DNA of 7,206 nt from Desulfobacterales bacterium (GTDB lineage Bacteria > Desulfobacterota > Desulfobacteria > Desulfobacterales > BuS5). A model generated the notes under the pieces. The model made no database searches, was not told the origin of the DNA, and was given only the letters and a program-made list of their open reading frames with translations. The stretch spans positions 1 through 7,206 of the forward strand of contig JAERRQ010000183.1 of assembly GCA_016735355.1 (NCBI GenBank), read 5' to 3'. Position 1 is the stretch's first letter. Every line of letters begins with the position of its first letter. The position numbers were made by a program, and so were the translations under genes. Shown here piece by piece: positions 1-7,206 of the stretch.

Positions 1-400
1 GCGATCTGGAATCGGCTCTGAAATACCACAGCCAGGCGCTTGAGATTGATAAAAGGATCGGTTATCTTCAGGGAGAGGCCTCAGACTTAGGCAACATAGG
101 CTTGGTCTATCAGGATATGGGCGACCTGGAATCGGCACTGAAATACCACAGCCAGGCCCTTGAGATTGATAAAAAAATCGCTTATCTCCAGGGAGAGGCC
201 AATCAACTTGGCAACATCGGCCTGGTCTATCAGGATATGGGCGATCTGGAATCGGCTCTGAAATACCACAGCCAGGCGCTTGAGATTGATAAAAGGATCG
301 GTTATCTTCAGGGAGAGGCCTCAGACTTAGGCAACATCGGTGCTGTCTATCAGGCTATGGGCGACCTGGAATCGGCTCTGAAATACCTTAGCCAGGCAAA
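1..400 (+). repeat. 120-bp tandem coding repeats (40-aa TPR units)
   Basis: Units start at 1, 121, 241 and 361 with an exact 120-bp period. Units 1 and 3 are identical over their first 97 bases and differ at about 6 of 120 positions. Unit 2 differs from unit 1 at about 16 positions, mostly around 181-220. This ABA pattern suggests a 240-bp higher-order unit copied by recent duplication or gene conversion. The array runs off the left edge of the window, so copy number is unknown. Confidence 0.93.
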
Positions 401-545
401 AGCAATCTTTGAAAAGATCGGGATGATCAACCAGGCTGAAATATTGGGTAAATGGATCAAAGAAGAAATAAACCCGACAAATCCGACTGCGCCAGGGGGC
501 ATATGGAAATGGATCAAAAAGCTGATCTCGTCAATCCTGGGTTGA
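3..545 (+). CDS. TPR-repeat protein, C-terminal part (5' end outside window)
   Basis: The reading frame is open from the window edge (first full codon at 3) to TGA at 543-545, giving 180 residues of a longer protein. It consists of 40-residue tetratricopeptide units, each with a helix A such as LGNIGLVYQDMGD and a helix B such as LESALKYHSQALEIDKRIG, the long-period TPR type related to kinesin-light-chain repeats. Three whole units and one degenerate final unit (LSQAKAIFEKIGMINQA) are present. Such solenoids bind protein or peptide partners; no enzymatic domain is visible here, and any effector domain would be upstream. After the repeats come a capping helix, a Pro/Thr linker (NPTNPTAPG) and a cationic, Trp-containing amphipathic tail, GIWKWIKKLISSILG, at residues 166-180. 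Partner and pathway cannot be told. The TPR assignment is secure; the function is not. Confidence 0.9.
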   Translation, partial: DLESALKYHSQALEIDKRIGYLQGEASDLGNIGLVYQDMGDLESALKYHSQALEIDKKIAYLQGEANQLGNIGLVYQDMGDLESALKYHSQALEIDKRIGYLQGEASDLGNIGAVYQAMGDLESALKYLSQAKAIFEKIGMINQAEILGKWIKEEINPTNPTAPGGIWKWIKKLISSILG

Positions 546-558
546 TAGGTGAGAAAAC

Positions 559-580
559 GGGGACGTCCATTGGAATATTA
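559..580 (+). repeat. Left copy of ~22-bp imperfect inverted repeat (RAYT-end-like)
   Basis: The sequence GGGGACGTCCATTGGAATAT and two following bases match the reverse complement of 2548-2570 with one 1-base gap and two mismatches. The similarity stops abruptly outside the GGGG. The copy overlaps the stop codon of the transposase-relic tail (578-580), as expected of a terminal motif next to a REP-associated transposase gene. The partner lies just after the sensor gene. Confidence 0.55.
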
Positions 581-794
581 TTTAATTTGTTTTGACAGCT
601 TTAATCCGGCTTTTATGGCAGCTTTTTGCCCCCGCATAGCTGACGCCATGTCGTCGATGACGATGGTTAAAACTGACTGCATGTCCGGTCAAAAGCCGCC
701 GCATTACTTTGGCTATCGGCGCTACTCCATAAAATATCTTTCGACGTTCTATTCCTCGTAGTATTATATGATGTAAGGCCCCCTTCTGGCCCTT
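578..794 (-). pseudogene. Decayed REP-associated tyrosine transposase (RAYT, Y1/HUH family)
   Basis: Read on the minus strand, the frame with stop at 582-584 and open back to a stop at 795-797 gives GALHHIILRGIERRKIF followed directly by GVAPIAKV and RRLLTGHAVSFNHRHRRHG. These are hallmark N-terminal and central stretches of RAYT (Y1_Tnp) proteins. The part that should lie between them, including the catalytic HxH (normally within a PNHFHLL-like stretch), is deleted. After RHRRHG the family's NRYKS-type continuation and much of the C-terminus are missing. A RAYT-like C-terminal tail, AMRGQKAAIKAGLKL, appears in a shifted minus frame ending at TAA 578-580. About 75 codons remain of an enzyme normally well over 200 residues, with no start codon, so it is dead. 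Intact members mobilise REP-type palindromes as single-stranded DNA. Recognition is from family knowledge, not a search. The rest of 546-933 holds no gene; it has an imperfect 22-bp repeat and a weak candidate promoter. Confidence 0.8.
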
Positions 795-837
795 TTAAAT
801 GGAACTGTCACGGGCAGACCTGATTCTTTACCTTGAT

Positions 838-867
838 TTGTCACAACAAAGCATGAAAGCCGATGAT
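838..867 (+). promoter_or_regulatory. Candidate sigma-70-type promoter for the Cache-AlbA_2 gene
   Basis: TTGTCA (838-843, 5 of 6 to TTGACA) is followed after 18 bp by GATGAT (862-867, 4 of 6 to TATAAT), about 65 bp upstream of the start codon. A weaker alternative is TTGCAA at 872-877 with CATTAT at 893-898. Both are motif matches in AT-rich DNA and have no further support. Confidence 0.2.
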
Positions 868-933
868 AGAGTTGCAAAGACTTTCATACAAACATTATAA
901 AGCCAAAAATAGGATTTTTGAACTGAAAATGCT

Positions 934-2526
934 ATGATAAAACTACAATCACTATTTTTTAAAGGCCATCCACAAAATATTCGCAAAAGATTACTCCGGG
1001 ATATTATTTTTGTGGTGGCAATTACCTTTTGTTGCCTGGTGGCGCTCAGTATTTACCAAGCTCGAACTGTACGTAAAAAAGTCTCTAAAACCATTATAAG
1101 TGATGCTGCCACACTTGTTAAAAAGAGGGTTGTCCGCTTTTTAGATCCCATTGAAAACTATCTTGCCGTTATCAGCGAGTGGGAAAAAAACGGCGCTATT
1201 GACCAACGAAATGACCAGGAATTAACCAGACTTTTTATTCCTTTGCTCAGCGCCCATGCCCATATTGCAGGCTTGTTAATTGCAAATAGTAATGGTGCTG
1301 AATTTTTCTTGCAACAATACGATGGTGGCTGGCGTTCCAGGCGGCTTCATCCTGGCGATGGTGAAAGAACTGCAACCTGGCGCTCCTGGCATCTTGATGG
1401 TCAGCAATGTAATGTCTGGCAAGAAAAAACTAATTATCAGTCTGCAAATAGACCATGGTACAAAGAAGCTTTAAGCAAAGAACCCGGCAAAATCAGCTGG
1501 ACTGAACCCTACACTTTTTTTACGACTCAGGAAATTGGAGTTACCGCTGTTACCCATTGGCAAGCAGAAGAGGATCTCGACTCTGAGCACATTATTGCCA
1601 TTGACCTCTTGGAAAATAATCTCCTTGAATTTTTAAATACTCTCCAGGCAGGTAAAGATGGCCATATTATTGTAATAGAAAAAGATGGTTCAATTATTAC
1701 TTATAATCAACTTAAACCAGGCAAAGTTGATCAACGACCTGCCCCCTTGCAAGCTGCACTGAAAATTTGGCAATCTCATAAGGGAAAAGAAGTTTCAGCC
1801 CTGGAATTCACCAGCAACGGCCAAGTCTGGTGGGCAGGCTTTAGCAAATTGGGCCAAGGTGATCCAAGTTCCTGGGTTGGCATTATCATTCCCCAGTCAA
1901 AAATCATGGATCACGTTGTCCAAAAATGGAGGCAAATCGGCACACTCGGCATCGCTGTCCTCATTTTTGCAATCTTTCTGGCTTTTCGACTTGTAAAAAA
2001 ATACAGCTATCAGCTCAAAGATCTTCCCACCCAGCACATCGGCAGTCATAATTTCACTGATGAGTTAATGGCCCTTATTGATGCCGGAGAAAGTACCACC
2101 CTGGAATTTAAATCAACCCTGCGAACAAATCTTAAGACTGGAAAAAAGGGTAAGGAAATTGAAATTGCCTGGCTCAAAACCATAACAGCCTTTATGAATT
2201 CCGATGGCGGCATCTTACTTGTAGGGGTTGAGGATAACGGCAATATTCTCGGAATCCAGGTGGATAATTTTGAGAATGAAGATAAGTTGCGCCTATATTG
2301 TAAAAGCCTGATTAATAACCATATAGGTCCTGAATTTGTTCGTTTTATTAATTTAAAACTAAAACTTGTTAAAGAAAAACAAGTTGTGGTCATTGAATGT
2401 GAGCGAGTACGAAAGCCTGTCTTTTTGTCCATTGGTAAAAATGAAGAATTTTTTGTACGTTCCGGACCATCAAGTATGAAGATCACCATGAGTCAACTGG
2501 TGAAATACCTTGAAGAAAGAAGATAA
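934..2526 (+). CDS. Membrane dCache sensor fused to a Schlafen/AlbA_2 domain
   Basis: This is a 530-residue protein. An in-frame stop at 919-921 leaves ATG 934 as the first start; the Shine-Dalgarno is poor (AGGA at 911-914 is too far upstream). Order: short basic N-terminus; TM helix about 24-42; extracytoplasmic region about 45-330; TM helix about 335-351; cytoplasmic AlbA_2 domain about 374-530. The outer region has the dCache signature NRPWYKEA (172-179) and SWTEPY (to 193), with Y168, R173, W175, Y176, Y193 and D224 spaced as in amino-acid-binding dCache domains. The inner domain has GESTTLEFKS (385-394), AFMNSDGGILLVGVEDNG (419-436) and a C-terminal FFVRSG, typical of AlbA_2. E386, E391 and D434 sit where Schlafen nucleases carry their acidic triad. 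There is no HAMP, kinase, GGDEF or methyl-accepting domain, and no HATPase of the kind often joined to AlbA_2. It is a single gene between repeats. A ligand-controlled nucleic-acid-binding or RNA-cleaving output is inference; a transcription-regulator role is equally possible. Confidence 0.88.
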   Translation: MIKLQSLFFKGHPQNIRKRLLRDIIFVVAITFCCLVALSIYQARTVRKKVSKTIISDAATLVKKRVVRFLDPIENYLAVISEWEKNGAIDQRNDQELTRLFIPLLSAHAHIAGLLIANSNGAEFFLQQYDGGWRSRRLHPGDGERTATWRSWHLDGQQCNVWQEKTNYQSANRPWYKEALSKEPGKISWTEPYTFFTTQEIGVTAVTHWQAEEDLDSEHIIAIDLLENNLLEFLNTLQAGKDGHIIVIEKDGSIITYNQLKPGKVDQRPAPLQAALKIWQSHKGKEVSALEFTSNGQVWWAGFSKLGQGDPSSWVGIIIPQSKIMDHVVQKWRQIGTLGIAVLIFAIFLAFRLVKKYSYQLKDLPTQHIGSHNFTDELMALIDAGESTTLEFKSTLRTNLKTGKKGKEIEIAWLKTITAFMNSDGGILLVGVEDNGNILGIQVDNFENEDKLRLYCKSLINNHIGPEFVRFINLKLKLVKEKQVVVIECERVRKPVFLSIGKNEEFFVRSGPSSMKITMSQLVKYLEERR

Positions 2527-2547
2527 CAGCCATAATCGGTTGTCAAT

Positions 2548-2570
2548 CAATATTTCAATGGAACGTCCCC
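2548..2570 (-). repeat. Right copy of ~22-bp imperfect inverted repeat
   Basis: The reverse complement begins GGGGACGTTCCATTGAAATA and pairs with 559-580 (about 20 matches, one gap, two mismatches). It lies 21 bp after the stop of the Cache-AlbA_2 gene. It also has a local near-palindrome with the bases that follow, GGAACGT (2560-2566) with ACGTCCC (2575-2581). It may be a solo end of a RAYT-type element. Confidence 0.5.
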
Positions 2571-2581
2571 AAACACGTCCC

Positions 2582-2725
2582 GTTACCATCTGGCTTCCCA
2601 TGCAAAACTTGGGAACCTTTTACATAGAGCCTTGTAAAAGCAAATTTTTGGTTCCCAGTTTAGACTTCTATTTTTGCTATGTTTTTTTAACCGTTAACTG
2701 TAAACCGGCAACCGTGAACGGTTAC
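2582..2725 (+). repeat. Left copy of 144-bp inverted repeat flanking the three-gene operon
   Basis: This segment matches the reverse complement of 6300-6442 with about 13 mismatches and one single-base gap (a 7-T versus 6-T run), roughly 90% identity by hand alignment. It contains nested palindromes: TTCCCA-9 nt-TGGGAA (2595-2615), CTTTTAC-10 nt-GTAAAAG (2617-2640), and an outer GGGAACC/GGTTCCC pair (2611-2617 with 2650-2656). Its 3' part is a 7-bp-period array. Several differences between the copies fall in loops or spacers while stem motifs are kept. Weak similarity (TTTCAAT at 2553-2559) may extend the outer edge. The inner edge is sharp and lies 31 bp before the kdsD start. REP/MITE-like in character; the family is not identified. 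Confidence 0.9.
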
Positions 2726-2726
2726 C
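2687..2726 (+). repeat. Heptad array A (NNAACCG, 7-bp period)
   Basis: Successive 7-mers read TTAACCG, TTAACTG, TAAACCG, GCAACCG, TGAACGG, TTACC. Five units with the first two positions variable and the AACCG core largely kept. It forms the inner end of the left 144-bp repeat and would fall in the 5' leader of the operon if transcription starts upstream. Confidence 0.85.
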
Positions 2727-2756
2727 AATAATAATAAGGCGATAAGAATTTGCATA

Positions 2757-3731
2757 ATGGTTATTAAACAGGCAATAGAAGTTCTTAAATTAGAGGCAGA
2801 AGGGGTATTAGGCTTAATCGACAAAATCGATGAAGGTTTTACCAAAATGGTAGAATTGATTTGTAATTCACAAGGACGTCTTATAGTTGGCGGTATAGGC
2901 AAATCCGGTATTGTAGGCAGAAAAATAGTGGCCACCTTGAACAGTACCGGAACAAGGTCACTTTTTTTACACCCGGTTGAAGCCATGCACGGAGATCTCG
3001 GAATGGTAAGCAGGAACGATATCTTTCTTGCTCTTTCTAACAGTGGAGAAACAGACGAACTTAACATTCTCCTTCCAAGTATACGAAGTATAGGCTGCCC
3101 GATTATTGCTTTGACAGGCAACATAAGGTCCACTTTGGCAAAGCAGAGTGACATAATTGTTGATGTTGGGGTTGATAAAGAGGCTTGCCCGCTTGGTCTG
3201 GCTCCCACTTCCAGCACAACAGCCCTGCTTGCCATGGGAGATGCGCTTGCCGTAGTTTTGATTAATAAAAAACATTTTAAACAGAGTGATTTTAAAAAGA
3301 TCCATCCCGGAGGAGCCCTAGGCCAAAGGCTTTCGGCAATGGTGAAGGATATCATGCTCACCGGCGACTCCCTACCGCTTGTATCCGATTCCGCTTCTTT
3401 GAGGGAAGCAATTGAAGAGATAAACCGTCGTGCTTTAGGGACTGTTCTTGTTGGTAATGATAAAAACAGACTTGCAGGCATTATAACGGATGGTGATTTA
3501 AGACGCCTTTTGGCAGATCAAAGGCCTATCGATGATCTAACCGCCAGTGAAGTAATGACCAAAAAACCTCGCGCAGTCAGCCCCGAATCTCCTGTTTATG
3601 ATGCCCTGAATATTATGGAGAGTTTCCAGATCACAATTTTGCCGGTTACCGATTCATCCGGCAGGATAGAGGGTATACTCCATTTGCATGATATATTGGG
3701 TAAGGGGGAATTCAAATTTAACGGAAAATAA
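2757..3731 (+). CDS. kdsD: D-arabinose-5-phosphate isomerase (KdsD/KpsF family)
   Basis: The 324-residue product has the usual length and order of KdsD/KpsF/GutQ: a SIS domain (about 35-185) followed by two CBS domains (about 195-257 and 266-320). It interconverts ribulose-5-phosphate and arabinose-5-phosphate in the cytoplasm, the first committed step towards Kdo. Visible signatures are GGIGKSG (45-51), HPVEAMHGDLGMV (72-84), SNSGETDE (94-101), KEACPLGLAPTSSTTA (141-156) and HPGGALG (183-189). K49, E101, E142 and H183 line up with the catalytic residues K59, E111, E152 and H193 of E. coli KdsD at a constant offset of 10. The CBS pair carries ITDGDLRR (242-249) and the terminal ILHLHD. ATG 2757 is the only sensible start; the Shine-Dalgarno is weak (AAGG at 2736-2739, 17 nt away). 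It heads an operon with a CoA transferase and a HAD phosphatase. Whether it serves LPS Kdo, a capsule, or another arabinose-phosphate use cannot be decided here. Confidence 0.95.
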   Translation: MVIKQAIEVLKLEAEGVLGLIDKIDEGFTKMVELICNSQGRLIVGGIGKSGIVGRKIVATLNSTGTRSLFLHPVEAMHGDLGMVSRNDIFLALSNSGETDELNILLPSIRSIGCPIIALTGNIRSTLAKQSDIIVDVGVDKEACPLGLAPTSSTTALLAMGDALAVVLINKKHFKQSDFKKIHPGGALGQRLSAMVKDIMLTGDSLPLVSDSASLREAIEEINRRALGTVLVGNDKNRLAGIITDGDLRRLLADQRPIDDLTASEVMTKKPRAVSPESPVYDALNIMESFQITILPVTDSSGRIEGILHLHDILGKGEFKFNGK

Positions 3732-3733
3732 AT

Positions 3734-3768
3734 AGGCAATCTCAAAATGTTTAATTTTGAAGATGCCT
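3734..3768 (+). other. Imperfect stem-loop between kdsD and the CoA-transferase gene
   Basis: AGGCAATCTCAAAAT (3734-3748) can pair with ATTTTGAAGATGCCT (3754-3768) across a 5-nt loop, 12 of 15 positions. No T-tract follows at once, so it is not a standard intrinsic terminator. It could be an mRNA processing or stability hairpin that sets different expression of the first gene. Confidence 0.4.
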
Positions 3769-3785
3769 CTAATGAATAGAGTTTT

Positions 3786-3791
3786 GAGGGG
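3786..3791 (+). promoter_or_regulatory. Ribosome binding site for the CoA-transferase gene
   Basis: GAGGGG lies 8 nt before ATG 3800 and is followed by a T-run. It is much stronger than the site of kdsD and fixes the start. Confidence 0.75.
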
Positions 3792-3799
3792 TTTTTTAT

Positions 3800-5011
3800 A
3801 TGATAAGACCATTGGAAGGAATCAGAGTAATTGAATGCGCTATATTTCATGCAGGGCCTGGAGCTTCCGCAATTATGGGAGATCTTGGCGCTGAAATAAT
3901 CAAGATAGAGCAGCCGGGTTCGGGCGATCCTATAAGATTTTTGAAAAAAATTGGAAAAATACCTTTTGGCCTGCCGGGCGGAAGAAATATTTTTTGCGAA
4001 GGTGCTAACAGGAATAAAAAGTCTGTTACCGTTAACCTGATGACAGAAAAAGGACAGGCTATTGTTCACAGATTAGCAAAAGATGCCGATGTGTTTTTGA
4101 CTAATTTCAGAAGGCCTGCTCTTGAAAAAATGAATATTACTTATGATGTAATCAGGCGGATAAATAAAAATATTATTTATACATCAGTATCCGCTTATGG
4201 TCCCAAGGGCCCTGACAGCGATCAGGGCGGATTCGATTACCAAGGCCAGGCCAGATCCGGAGTAATGTATTCCATGGGCGAAGAAGGTATGCCGCCTTTA
4301 GTCTGTCAGTTCGGTATTCTTGATCAGGCTACGGCATTTAATGCAAGCCACCAGATTATCGCCGCTCTTCTGGCGCGAGAGCGTTTCGGAATAAGTCAGG
4401 AAATCAAGATCTCCATTTTAGGTTCTTCAATGAATCTTATTTACTTTAATATTCTTACTTCTCTCGTGGGAGGTTTTAATGTTCCGCGGCACAAGCGTTC
4501 AGAGGAGCATCCCATGCGGAATCATTACAAGTGCAAAGACGGCAAATGGTTTATGATGACTCTTAATCCACCGAACAAAAACTGGGAATCTTTATGCCTC
4601 GCCCTGGAACATCCTGAGTTTATAAATGACCCCCGCTTCAACACCGATGAGCAGAAACTTGAGAATGCGGAAGAACTGGTTGCTATTTTTGATAAAATCA
4701 TTGCCGAGCGGACGCGGGCGGAATGGCTTGAGATATTCAACCGGTATGATTTTTTCTGTTGTGCCGTAAATACCATGGAGGATCTTACTGAAGATCCCCA
4801 AATCCTGAAAAATAATTATATCGTAGATTTTGATCACCCTGACATGGGTAAAATTAAAATTCCCGGGTATCCGGCCTACTTCAGTGAATGTGAAGCGGGT
4901 ATGGTAAGTGCTGTGCCTGAACTGGGAGAGCATACTGAGCAGGTTCTCCTTGAACTGGGAGGATATACTTCAGAAGAAATATCAACAATGAAAGATGAAG
5001 GAGTGGTTTGA
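3800..5011 (+). CDS. Family III (CaiB/BaiF-type) CoA transferase
   Basis: This 403-residue protein has the normal length for a family III CoA transferase, a cytoplasmic enzyme that moves CoA between carboxylic acids through an aspartyl-CoA intermediate. Family features in order: PLEGIRVIE (4-12) and GPGASAIMGDLGAEIIKIE (19-37); GANRNKKSVTVNL (68-80); TNFRRPALEKM with NIIYTSVSAYGPKGP, the CoA-binding part; FGILDQATAFNA, whose D175 aligns with the catalytic aspartate of CaiB and formyl-CoA transferase; and ALLARERFG with QEIKISIL. The C-terminal part (NHYKCKDGKWFMMT, then GKIKIPGYP) is also typical. The acids used cannot be read from sequence; members include formyl-, carnitinyl- and benzylsuccinyl-CoA transferases and 2-methylacyl-CoA racemases. 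It is the middle gene of an operon, 68 bp after kdsD and 1 nt before the phosphatase gene. Its place between two sugar-phosphate-type enzymes is unusual. Confidence 0.93.
   Translation: MIRPLEGIRVIECAIFHAGPGASAIMGDLGAEIIKIEQPGSGDPIRFLKKIGKIPFGLPGGRNIFCEGANRNKKSVTVNLMTEKGQAIVHRLAKDADVFLTNFRRPALEKMNITYDVIRRINKNIIYTSVSAYGPKGPDSDQGGFDYQGQARSGVMYSMGEEGMPPLVCQFGILDQATAFNASHQIIAALLARERFGISQEIKISILGSSMNLIYFNILTSLVGGFNVPRHKRSEEHPMRNHYKCKDGKWFMMTLNPPNKNWESLCLALEHPEFINDPRFNTDEQKLENAEELVAIFDKIIAERTRAEWLEIFNRYDFFCCAVNTMEDLTEDPQILKNNYIVDFDHPDMGKIKIPGYPAYFSECEAGMVSAVPELGEHTEQVLLELGGYTSEEISTMKDEGVV
4998..5003 (+). promoter_or_regulatory. Ribosome binding site that fixes the phosphatase start
   Basis: AAGGAG inside the end of the CoA-transferase gene lies 9 nt before ATG 5013. 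The in-frame ATG at 4995 precedes this site and has no Shine-Dalgarno of its own. ATG 5013 is one base after the upstream TGA (5009-5011), so translational coupling is likely. Confidence 0.75.
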
Positions 5012-5012
5012 T

Positions 5013-6263
5013 ATGATAATAGAAAAGCATGAGATACGCCTGTTAAAGGAATTTTACGATCTTATGGCACATACCCGTGCAATACGATTTATTATTGTTG
5101 AGAACATATTTAATAATAACCTTGAATCATCAGACTCCGATGCAATAAATAACGCAAGGATTAATGTTGAAAAGTTACAGATCACTTCTCTTGAGAATGC
5201 ACTTTTTTCTCTTGAGAATATTCCTTTTGAAGGGACAAGGCGAATTTTGTTTCTGGATTCCTCAAAAAAAATAGAGGTAGATCTTGCATATGAAATAGAA
5301 GAGCTGAAAAAGGATATTTTCTACCTTAAAAATGGAGAAAAAAAATTTTTCGGTTATCTTGAAAATATACATTCCGGCTTCACGGAACAGGTAGAAGCTG
5401 GAGTAAAAAGACTGGAAGGGCTTGATTTTAACTGTTTCATAACCGACCGGGACGGCACCACCAACAATTACTGCGGCAGGTACAGATCTTCAATCCAATC
5501 TGTTTATAATGCTGTTTTTATTACTCGTTTTGCAAAAAAAAGAGCTGAGCATCCTATTATTATAACTTCCGCGCCGTTGAAGGATTGCCCGGGCATAGTC
5601 GATGTAAGCGTAAATCCTGAAAATACAATTATTTATGCCGCATCCAAGGGGCGTGAATGTATAGATCTGGGCGGATTACGCCGAACTTATCCCATAGAAG
5701 AAAACAAACAACAACTTATCAACGAATTGAATGAAAAACTTTCCTCTCTATTAACGGACCCAGAGCTGGAAAAATTTACCTTAATAGGCTCCGGGTTGCA
5801 GTTTAAATTCGGACAAACAACAATTGCACGGCAGGATATAAACGGATCTATTCCCCAGGATGAATCTGCTAAATTTTTAAAACTTGTACAAGGCATTGTT
5901 ACGGATGTCGATCCGGATGGGAACAATTTCAGAATCGAAGATACCGGCCTTGATATTGAGATAATCCTTACAATTGAAGATTCGGAATCAGTACTAAAGG
6001 ACTTTGACAAGGGGGATGCAGTCAGGTACCTTAATACCGAATTAGATCTCTCAATGTCCAAAGGACCACATCTGATATGCGGAGACACAGCATCAGATAT
6101 TCCCATGATAGAAGCTTCCATTGAACAGAGCGATGATACATGGACTGTTTTTGTAACTAAAAACAGGGCACTTATAGAAAGAGTGTCGGCAATATCTTCT
6201 AATACCGTATTAGTAACGGAGCCGGACATGCTGGTTGCCATGCTGGCCTGTTTGTCACGATAG
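5013..6263 (+). CDS. HAD-superfamily phosphatase with unrecognised N-terminal region
   Basis: From ATG 5013 the product is 416 residues (six longer from ATG 4995, which is less likely). HAD motif I is TDRDGTTNN with nucleophile D145 and acid D147; motif II is ITSAP with T185; motif III is probably K350; motif IV is GDTASDIPM with D358 and D362. The large insertion between motifs II and III (about 190-345) and the SDIPM form fit the cap-type IIB group that includes trehalose-6-phosphate and Cof-like sugar phosphatases. Substrate is not identifiable. Residues 1-140 (mostly helical, charged, no motif I know) do not resemble the usual HAD start; no glycosyltransferase signature is visible. It is not KdsC, which is a capless protein of about 180 residues. 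It is the last gene of the operon and probably coupled to the CoA transferase. Assignment to HAD is firm; sugar-phosphate specificity is inferred from fold type and from kdsD in the operon. Confidence 0.85.
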   Translation: MIIEKHEIRLLKEFYDLMAHTRAIRFIIVENIFNNNLESSDSDAINNARINVEKLQITSLENALFSLENIPFEGTRRILFLDSSKKIEVDLAYEIEELKKDIFYLKNGEKKFFGYLENIHSGFTEQVEAGVKRLEGLDFNCFITDRDGTTNNYCGRYRSSIQSVYNAVFITRFAKKRAEHPIIITSAPLKDCPGIVDVSVNPENTIIYAASKGRECIDLGGLRRTYPIEENKQQLINELNEKLSSLLTDPELEKFTLIGSGLQFKFGQTTIARQDINGSIPQDESAKFLKLVQGIVTDVDPDGNNFRIEDTGLDIEIILTIEDSESVLKDFDKGDAVRYLNTELDLSMSKGPHLICGDTASDIPMIEASIEQSDDTWTVFVTKNRALIERVSAISSNTVLVTEPDMLVAMLACLSR

Positions 6264-6299
6264 CCTATACCTCTCAAGGCTACAAAACGTATATTTTTT
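6261..6299 (+). terminator. Weak candidate terminator after the operon
   Basis: TAGCCT (6261-6266, including the stop codon) pairs with AGGCTA (6277-6282) around a 10-nt loop; a run of six T lies at 6294-6299. The gap of 11 nt between stem and T-run makes this atypical. The adjoining right 144-bp repeat, with its own hairpins, could end transcription instead. Confidence 0.3.
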
Positions 6300-6336
6300 G
6301 TAACCGTTCACGGTTGTCGGTTTACAGTTAACGGTT
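6300..6336 (-). repeat. Heptad array B (TTNACGG, 7-bp period)
   Basis: Seven-mers GTAACCG, TTCACGG, TTGTCGG, TTTACAG, TTAACGG follow one another. It is the inverted counterpart of array A within the right 144-bp repeat. Confidence 0.85.
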
Positions 6337-6442
6337 AAAAAACATACCAAAACTCGAATTCTAAACTGGGAACCAAAGGTTTGCTTTTACAAGGCTCTGA
6401 GTAAAAGCTTCCCAAGCTTTGCATGGGAACCCGGATGGTAAC
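6300..6442 (-). repeat. Right copy of 144-bp inverted repeat flanking the operon
   Basis: This is the inverted partner of 2582-2725. It keeps the same palindromes: CTTTTAC/GTAAAAG (6384-6390 with 6401-6407, extended to 8 bp here by G and C) and TTCCCA/TGGGAA (6409-6414 with 6424-6429). The inner edge starts 36 bp after the last stop codon. A transcript covering the whole operon would carry complementary ends. Confidence 0.9.
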
Positions 6443-6506
6443 TGATGATCGAAGCCTAATGATTGAAACATTTTAGCTATAAATTTCAAAATTTTTTGGT
6501 TTTTTC

Positions 6507-6543
6507 AACCGTGAACTGATAAGTGTAAACCGTGAACGGTTAC
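6507..6543 (+). repeat. Heptad array C (AACCGTG, 7-bp period)
   Basis: Seven-mers AACCGTG, AACTGAT, AAGTGTA, AACCGTG, AACGGTT are in tandem. The end (GTAAACCGTGAACGGTTAC, 6525-6543) and the preceding T-run resemble the inner end of the left 144-bp repeat, so this may be a truncated third copy in the same orientation as the left one. Confidence 0.75.
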
Positions 6544-6743
6544 AAAAATAGTGATCAAATGTGTATCTATTTGCATACAACAATGGTTTTGGTTTCGATG
6601 GTTGAGGATGGATTCGGACTATGCCAACTAAAACCGGCCAAGTTAATTTTTTTCCCATGCGCTGCCAAAAGACATATAATTCAACTTTCTGACTTATATT
6701 ATTTGTTTTGATTATCGGTGCTTTCTGTGGTTGATCCGTGCCT

Positions 6744-6773
6744 GGTTTACGGTTTACAGTTTACGGTTACCGG
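6744..6773 (-). repeat. Heptad array D (GGTTTAC, 7-bp period)
   Basis: Seven-mers GGTTTAC, GGTTTAC, AGTTTAC, GGTTACC are in tandem, in the orientation opposite to array E. Confidence 0.8.
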
Positions 6774-6862
6774 TCAGCTCAAAACAGGGTAGTGTTTTTA
6801 TTTATTTGAAATTGCATAGAAAATAGTTGGAATAAATACCAAACAATTCCTCAATGTAATTT

Positions 6863-6897
6863 CCGTAAACCGGCAACTGTAAACCGTAAACTTTAAA
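6863..6897 (+). repeat. Heptad array E (CCGTAAA, 7-bp period)
   Basis: Seven-mers CCGTAAA, CCGGCAA, CTGTAAA, CCGTAAA, CTTTAAA are in tandem. The array is the inverted partner of D. Confidence 0.8.
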
Positions 6898-7079
6898 ACG
6901 AACTGGTAGCAAGGCTCATATTATTTGTAAAACCAAAAGGTTATGCCAAGTCAGAAAGTTGAAACATATAACATATAAACTTGTTGAAATTATTGATCTG
7001 CACTCTTTTGTATGGACTACAAGAAATTGAGCCTGATGCATGGATAGGGTAGGGTGAGCGTTTTGAAAATGGTTTTTTG

Positions 7080-7119
7080 TATGAAATAAACTACATAATT
7101 AGTGGTAGTTTATTTCATA
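7080..7119. promoter_or_regulatory. Perfect 15-bp inverted repeat with 10-nt loop
   Basis: TATGAAATAAACTAC (7080-7094) is exactly complementary to 7105-7119. Arms are AT-rich and no T-tract follows, so an operator-type protein-binding site or an RNA hairpin is more likely than a terminator. It has a different sequence from the heptads and the 144-bp repeat. Any gene it would control lies beyond the right edge. Confidence 0.5.
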
Positions 7120-7206
7120 AATATAGGCAAAACTTTCATTTCTTTTGGGATGTTAAAAAACACTACACGGTATAACCACCTGAAAAATAATGCTTTATTA
7201 AAGTAA

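Follow-up and report, generated by a model that had tools for sequence, protein, structure and literature searches.

A probable bacterial receptor family that joins a membrane-anchored dCache sensor to a Schlafen-type AlbA_2 domain

In a 7,206-nucleotide stretch of DNA from a Desulfobacterales bacterium (assembly GCA_016735355.1, contig JAERRQ010000183.1, positions 1 to 7,206; hereafter the window), we find a gene for a 530-residue protein in which a double Cache (dCache) sensor, placed between two transmembrane (TM) helices, is followed by a Schlafen-type AlbA_2 domain. The architecture recurs in many homologues, the active-site residues of the AlbA_2 domain are intact, the fold of this domain matches the SAMD9 tRNase domain and Schlafens, and the same output is reused behind other inputs. 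We consider it highly probable that the protein is a membrane signal receptor with an AlbA_2 output. That this output is a ribonuclease (RNase) is, judging from its residues and fold, somewhat better than an even bet, while the fuller proposal, in which a ligand gates the membrane receptor and its AlbA_2 domains, once paired, would cut RNA, probably tRNA, stands at about even chances.

Bacterial sensors are taught as ending in kinases, cyclases, chemotaxis signallers or DNA-binding domains. Both dCache and AlbA_2 are already known, but their combination is undescribed in the open-access literature searched (preprints and most subscription papers were outside the search). In the accessible part of a census of the Cache superfamily, which names known signalling outputs, AlbA_2 was not met as an output (PMC4822843). 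The features of the gene are as follows.

934 to 2526, + strand: coding sequence, 530 residues, TM - dCache - TM - SLFN_AlbA_2 (open reading frame (ORF) list, Pfam, protein search)
991 to 1059, + strand: TM helix 1, residues about 20-42 (hydropathy; in the model, one long helix 15-85)
1060 to 1923, + strand: dCache_1 sensor, predicted periplasmic, residues 43-330 (Pfam, alignment, fold search)
1435 to 1605, + strand: dCache_1AA amino-acid-binding motif, Y168, R173, W175, Y176, Y193, D224 (regular expression, from the accessible part of PMC11237719)
1936 to 1998, + strand: TM helix 2, residues about 335-355 (hydropathy; helix 321-362 in the model)
1999 to 2088, + strand: short cytoplasmic linker, residues 356-385, no HAMP (Pfam, homologue alignment)
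2053 to 2523, + strand: AlbA_2 output domain with subfamily-specific flanks, residues 374-530 (Pfam match 386-517; Pfam, fold search)
2089 to 2112, + strand: Schlafen ExxxxExK active-site motif, E386, E391, K393 (84/84 domains; motif named in the accessible part of PMC12215978)
2233 to 2235, + strand: third active-site acid, D434 (83/84 domains; aligns to the Schlafen tandem-aspartate site, accessible part of PMC5862951)

An earlier reading of the sequence alone had proposed TM-dCache-TM-AlbA_2 with no HAMP, kinase or GGDEF part, and the ORF, Pfam and hydropathy confirm it; a Pfam scan of the 530-residue protein finds no HAMP, kinase, GGDEF or helix-turn-helix (HTH) domain. The double Cache fold is located between the two TM helices, and the C-terminal region matches PF04326 (SLFN_AlbA_2) as had been claimed, at 78.5 bits against a curated cut-off of 25.3; the match to an AlbA_2 profile stops 1 residue before the chain end. 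In a protein search that scored only the 7,995 candidates sharing most words, 663 proteins match at E ≤ 0.001, both domains not being guaranteed in each, and we examined the best 120 of these. The whole architecture passes an automated test in 108 of the 120, and the linker residues Y357, Q360 and P365 are each kept in all 120. The 12 failures comprise 5 full-length proteins, in which, by our reading, an additional short profile envelope put the start of AlbA_2 in the wrong place, and 7 shorter ones that are possibly start-truncated. The sequence-only reading was to fall if the architecture proved both common and already assigned a function; it is common, and no assigned function was found in the literature searched. 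A misread ORF or chance AlbA_2 match is ruled out by Pfam, the homologue search and the fold match, and a misassembly chimera is ruled out by full-length relatives from separate assemblies and from cultured strains. Among the cultured strains with the gene are Thiocapsa roseopersicina DSM 217 (L116) and Desulfocapsa sulfexigens DSM 10523 (P0070, on a 3.99 Mb contig).

The active site of the AlbA_2 domain is highly conserved. Among the domains used for active-site counts (set A4, 84 of 110 domains), E386, E391 and K393 (ExxxxExK) are found in all 84 and D434 in 83, and the window protein contains the complete Schlafen-type site of ExxxxExK and third acid. D434 aligns with D248 of rat SLFN13, described in the accessible part of the source as the tandem-aspartate site of Schlafens (PMC5862951). 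Because Cache domains took up the hit list when the whole model was searched, we modelled the AlbA_2 domain by itself; its closest folds are then nucleic-acid-acting proteins, including the SAMD9 tRNase domain and Schlafens.

The same AlbA_2 domain is found behind other modules. From 123 AlbA_2 ORFs (E ≤ 1e-15, 143 loci) we obtained 111 distinct ones, which are best matches and not an unbiased census (set A2 holds 107 of the 111; set A3 holds the window protein, 45 of the 120 listed homologues and 44 loci). Labelled by Pfam domains, some of them sub-threshold, and by hydropathy for TM segments, the input is Cache in 93 of the 111 (86 of the 93 being at least 480 residues long with two predicted TMs), a receiver (REC) in 4, a short two-TM module in 5, GmrSD in 3 and a multi-TM module in 2, with single cases of SBP_bac_3, an HsdS/methylase-like part and a STAND-like ATPase, and one fragment. 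GmrSD_N is above cut-off in L061 and P0334. Since these labels require 8 changes (minimum 7; GmrSD at least 2) on an AlbA_2 tree of 110 of the 111 rows, the output seems to have changed inputs on a few occasions and to have been stable afterwards, within the limits set by long branches and the midpoint root. The sensor has a mean pairwise identity of 25%, compared to 57% for AlbA_2.

Two of the other inputs were examined more closely. In the best 120 of 7,133 matches to REC-AlbA_2, a total that includes plain receiver proteins, both domains, the conserved Lys and the active-site acids are present in all 120 and the phospho-acceptor Asp in 119 (one gap). At L114, the REC-AlbA_2 gene start, as called, is 3 bases past the stop of a hybrid kinase gene (dCache, PAS, GAF, HisKA, HATPase_c and REC), which is the same signalling logic divided over two proteins. 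SBP_bac_3-AlbA_2 proteins account for 78 of 120 matches listed, the remainder being 32 GmrSD_N-AlbA_2, 3 BrxL-AlbA_2, 6 with AlbA_2 alone and 1 without AlbA_2. As 7 of the 78 carry the source name 'ABC-type amino acid transport substrate-binding protein', SBP_bac_3 is a candidate for a second, unrelated amino-acid sensor on the same output. Because AlbA_2 is found behind Cache, periplasmic binding-protein and phosphorylatable receiver inputs, the subfamily is best read, from its sequences, as an all-purpose signalling output based on a predicted RNase. The earlier suggestion that this is a one-component receptor whose output acts on nucleic acid is thus well supported by the variety of inputs and by the intact active-site residues.

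The sensor of the window protein carries a known amino-acid-binding signature. The dCache_1AA motif, [YFWL]....[RK].W[WYF]{n1}[YF]{n2}[D] with n1 about 13-17 and n2 about 27-34 (from the accessible part of PMC11237719), fits at residues 168-224. It is present in 39 of the 40 closest homologues, in 13 of the remaining 80 and in 48 of 87 Cache-type loci, with a background of 8 in 10,000 shuffles of the query Cache region and 2 of 565 neighbour ORFs. Given its near-universal presence in the closest homologues and its rarity in the background, we predict that the clade of the window protein senses amino acids. One of the 2 motif-fitting neighbour ORFs, beginning with a TM stretch directly before an AlbA_2 fragment, looks like the sensor half of a disrupted family member; at this locus (L053:2-1986), which is adjacent to a gene for the Na+/H+ antiporter NhaA, the sensor and the AlbA_2 part are encoded by separate, overlapping ORFs.

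Because dCache receptors generally act as dimers, we propose that binding of an amino acid, the likely ligand, to the predicted periplasmic domain of a dimeric receptor would shift TM2 and the conserved linker (Y357, Q360, P365) and would bring the two AlbA_2 domains into a paired, RNA-clamping arrangement, as Schlafens achieve with two lobes or by dimerisation. Once paired, the domains would start to cut RNA, probably tRNA, at the inner membrane, and cleavage of tRNA or other RNA would slow translation or retune it to the environment. Pairing is a reasonable switch because, in the accessible parts of two sources, the two lobes of SLFN13 form a pseudo-dimer (PMC5862951), and SLFN11 dimerisation and SLFN12-PDE3A assembly are linked to nuclease activation (PMC12215978). 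More tentatively, and at somewhat less than even odds, there may be a class of receptors with a Schlafen/SAMD9-type half-nuclease output that is paired and activated by any fused input module; with similar reserve, its modules may comprise the amino-acid-sensing Cache, the periplasmic binding protein, the phosphorylated receiver, GmrSD and BrxL.

A large family here ends in a domain that has kept its catalytic residues and that counts, among its closest relatives of known structure, enzymes of vertebrate innate immunity that cut tRNA. If the output cuts RNA, a single protein would link a ligand to control of translation, with neither phosphorelay nor second messenger, and the AlbA_2/Schlafen superfamily would gain a physiological context beyond defence. 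If such a class of receptors exists, amino acids outside the cell would have direct control over tRNA cleavage and translation by an IRE1-like logic in bacteria, and an immunity effector would double as an everyday signalling output. The prediction is concrete: it specifies a class of ligand and individual residues, and it comes with hosts in culture and a two-component version that phosphorylation could switch.

IRE1 of eukaryotes is a membrane-spanning sensor with a cytosolic RNase switched by oligomerisation. The window protein resembles it in outline, with a sensor across the membrane and a predicted cytosolic RNase that oligomerisation would switch, but has no kinase and different sensor and RNase folds, and we claim no sequence relation. 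Compared to dCache_1AA amino-acid chemoreceptors of the PctA type, it lacks HAMP and the methyl-accepting chemotaxis protein (MCP) signalling domain and ends in AlbA_2 instead. Its sister proteins resemble two-component response regulators in carrying AlbA_2 behind an intact receiver domain, but differ in that output, which was not met for response regulators in the literature searched. The AlbA_2 fold is shared with Schlafen RNases (SLFN11/12/13/14) and the SAMD9/9L tRNase domain, and the ExxxxExK and third-acid residues with Schlafens; in SAMD9, compared by description and not by residue alignment, the first two acids are spaced differently (E184, E196; accessible part of PMC11221667). In contrast to these proteins, the window protein is bacterial, is predicted to be membrane-tethered with a periplasmic sensor, has no SIR2, helicase or NTPase part, and contains a single AlbA_2 domain per chain by Pfam, whereas Schlafen RNases clamp base-paired RNA with two lobes; the partner chain of a homodimer could provide the other lobe. 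Classical bacterial AlbA_2 proteins, three distant ones of which are encoded in the same genome, share the SLFN_AlbA_2-type domain; theirs is N-terminal to a long C-terminal part (described for such proteins as a minimal kinase-type ATPase and winged helix in the accessible part of PMC12839542), while that of the window protein is C-terminal behind the sensor.

A number of observations weigh against a ligand-gated RNase. With respect to the sensor, the match to dCache_1 (PF02743) has an E value of 8.3e-08 and a score of 32.5 bits, under the cut-off of 45 (precomputed Pfam annotation gives PF02743 for P0001, 99% identical to the window protein). The dCache_1AA motif is absent from 39 of 87 Cache-type loci and from 67 of the 80 more distant homologues, so either the family is diverse in its ligands or the motif is permissive. 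It is missing from the Desulfocapsa-type relatives linked to NhaA (L037, L067-L071, L073, L074), and the Asp that PctA has 2 residues past the conserved PY aligns with F195 in the window protein. The pocket is thus probably altered in a large part of the wider family. With respect to the output, the third acid is replaced by N in L013, the active-site pattern is not matched by 2 of the 78 SBP-type proteins (P0243, P0247), and of the 32 GmrSD-type proteins, 16 fit only the ExxxxExK part of the regular expression, because M stands for F there, the D being present by eye. We found no subfamily member with an experimentally established function. Binding of nucleic acid by an AlbA_2 domain need not lead to cutting: in the accessible part of the source, SLFN5 binds tRNA with no cleavage (PMC11221667). 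The rabbit SAMD9 tRNase domain alone is not the minimal active module (accessible part of PMC12331169). With respect to input swapping, the labels GmrSD_N in L055 and L057, Methylase_S in L016 and ATPase_2 in L017 are sub-threshold, a number of the non-Cache rows sit on long branches, and the grouping of the four REC rows has support of only 76/40. Of the four REC loci only L114 has an adjacent histidine kinase; by eye in the ORF lists there is none at L144-L146, L145 having a PAS-like ORF about 2.4 kb from the REC-AlbA_2 gene.

Binding without cutting is the core of the strongest alternative, which we regard as unlikely, though it would explain some of the data. ToxR and CadC are membrane-bound regulators of transcription, and the window protein might be a one-component regulator of this kind, in which the Cache ligand controls promoter binding by an AlbA_2 domain that leaves DNA or RNA uncut. 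AlbA_2 domains do bind double-stranded nucleic acid (SAMD9 with DNA, 7ksp), some receptor genes adjoin transporter genes that are possible targets, and P0070 is named 'HTH domain-containing putative transcriptional regulator', although its listed domains are only dCache_1 and AlbA_2. However, the retained catalytic acids and lysine would be superfluous for pure binding, Pfam finds no HTH in the protein, and the chain leaves only that 1 residue past the AlbA_2 match.

Gene neighbourhoods bear on a second alternative, which we consider improbable: an envelope-sensing anti-phage protein that would cut tRNA upon infection and so abort phage growth. The AlbA_2 subfamily is fused to GmrSD and BrxL in the listed matches counted above, and Schlafen RNases occur with BREX systems (accessible part of PMC12839542). 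The GmrSD and BrxL fusions keep a defence link for other AlbA_2 forms. A preprint on bacterial Schlafen defence reportedly exists. The stress or defence role raised in the sequence-only reading does not hold up for the Cache form. We scanned 120 of 163 neighbour ORFs, hand-picked after removal of likely antisense or GC-artefact frames and near-duplicates, with a defence-model library dated 2023, and matches (E ≤ 1e-10) are sporadic: mad2, mad3 and DrmC 2 each, and three RtcR-type models and QatD 1 each. The commonest immediate neighbour family in the same scan is Na_H_antiport_1 (NhaA), with 9. PADLOC did not assign the window protein to a system, its AlbA_2 part giving a weak pAgo-model match (19.4 bits, E 4.3e-05). 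Phages and plasmids yielded no full-length copy, the phages giving a single partial match, and a Cache sensor for small molecules that carries an amino-acid motif would be an odd phage detector. Least probable of all is that AlbA_2 serves protein-protein contacts or oligomerisation, or binds a nucleotide derivative, and that the receptor signals via a partner: some relatives carry the source name 'ATP-binding protein' and the lack of a conserved operon partner is no obstacle, as partners need not adjoin, but the active site is conserved across unrelated inputs and the closest folds act on nucleic acids.

The neighbourhood leans towards a role in envelope and cation physiology, with most NhaA cases belonging to one clade. 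The NhaA gene directly precedes the receptor gene in the same orientation, with an overlap as called or a distance of no more than 23 bases, in the Desulfocapsa-type clade listed above and in L044 on another branch. No fixed operon partner was found: NhaA-type genes occur in 12 loci within the flanks examined, and NhaA itself in just 5 of 20 genomes of the window's relatives. Elsewhere there is a Na_H_Exchanger/TrkA_N gene 7 bases upstream (L075), a Na_Ca_ex gene 29 bases downstream (L089) and a convergent Na_sulph_symp gene (L064). In five gammaproteobacterial genomes (L081, L088, L090, L091, L106), the receptor gene lies between squalene/phytoene-synthase-like genes (Pfam on one), which we take to be possibly a hopanoid synthesis cluster.

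The family is widely distributed. A scan of named genomes with the AlbA_2 alignment retained the best 80 of at least 560 loci, which by record titles and tree labels lie in Thermodesulfobacteriota, gammaproteobacterial Chromatiaceae and Competibacteraceae, Kiritimatiellota, Verrucomicrobiota, Krumholzibacteriota and Aminicenantes, and in one planctomycete and one archaeal metagenome-assembled genome (MAG). The AlbA_2 subfamily is found at E ≤ 1e-22 in 37 of 395 genomes of the window's phylum, and a match over >90% of the query in 6 of 96 genomes, its own included. The nearest named relative is a Desulfobacteraceae MAG (L064), 93% over AlbA_2.

Several other AlbA_2 proteins were noted. P0336, P0337 and P0360 are BrxL-type proteins with the subfamily at the C-terminus (P0337 confirmed with BrxL_N and BrxL_ATPase), possibly the RNase arm of a BREX component; L055, L057, L061 and P0322-P0359 include GmrSD-type proteins with a C-terminal AlbA_2, and a Sinorhizobium plasmid has an AlbA_2 match inside a DUF262 protein. 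Short two-TM AlbA_2 proteins of 268-311 residues (L058, L059, L060, L062, L063) have a conserved YPINE(F/Y)V between the helices. A multi-TM AlbA_2 protein (L129:4347-5522) comes from a Thermoplasmata archaeon MAG, its sister in the tree being bacterial L013. At L118:8785-9642, ORF translations repeat a short unit, like a CRISPR array.

In the window, the receptor gene is flanked on one side by a TPR gene, truncated at the contig end, and on the other by a KpsF/GutQ-like gene. The TPR gene (1-420) contains 120-nucleotide repeats with 88-89% identity over 180 nucleotides. An inverted repeat pair (2582-2733 and 6292-6442; 106 nucleotides at 89% and 51 nucleotides at 94% complementarity) flanks three genes at 2757-6263, for a KpsF/GutQ-like isomerase, a CoA-transferase III and a T6PP-type HAD protein, in a cassette-like arrangement; in the close relative L064, the Na_sulph_symp gene stands beside the receptor gene in place of these genes.
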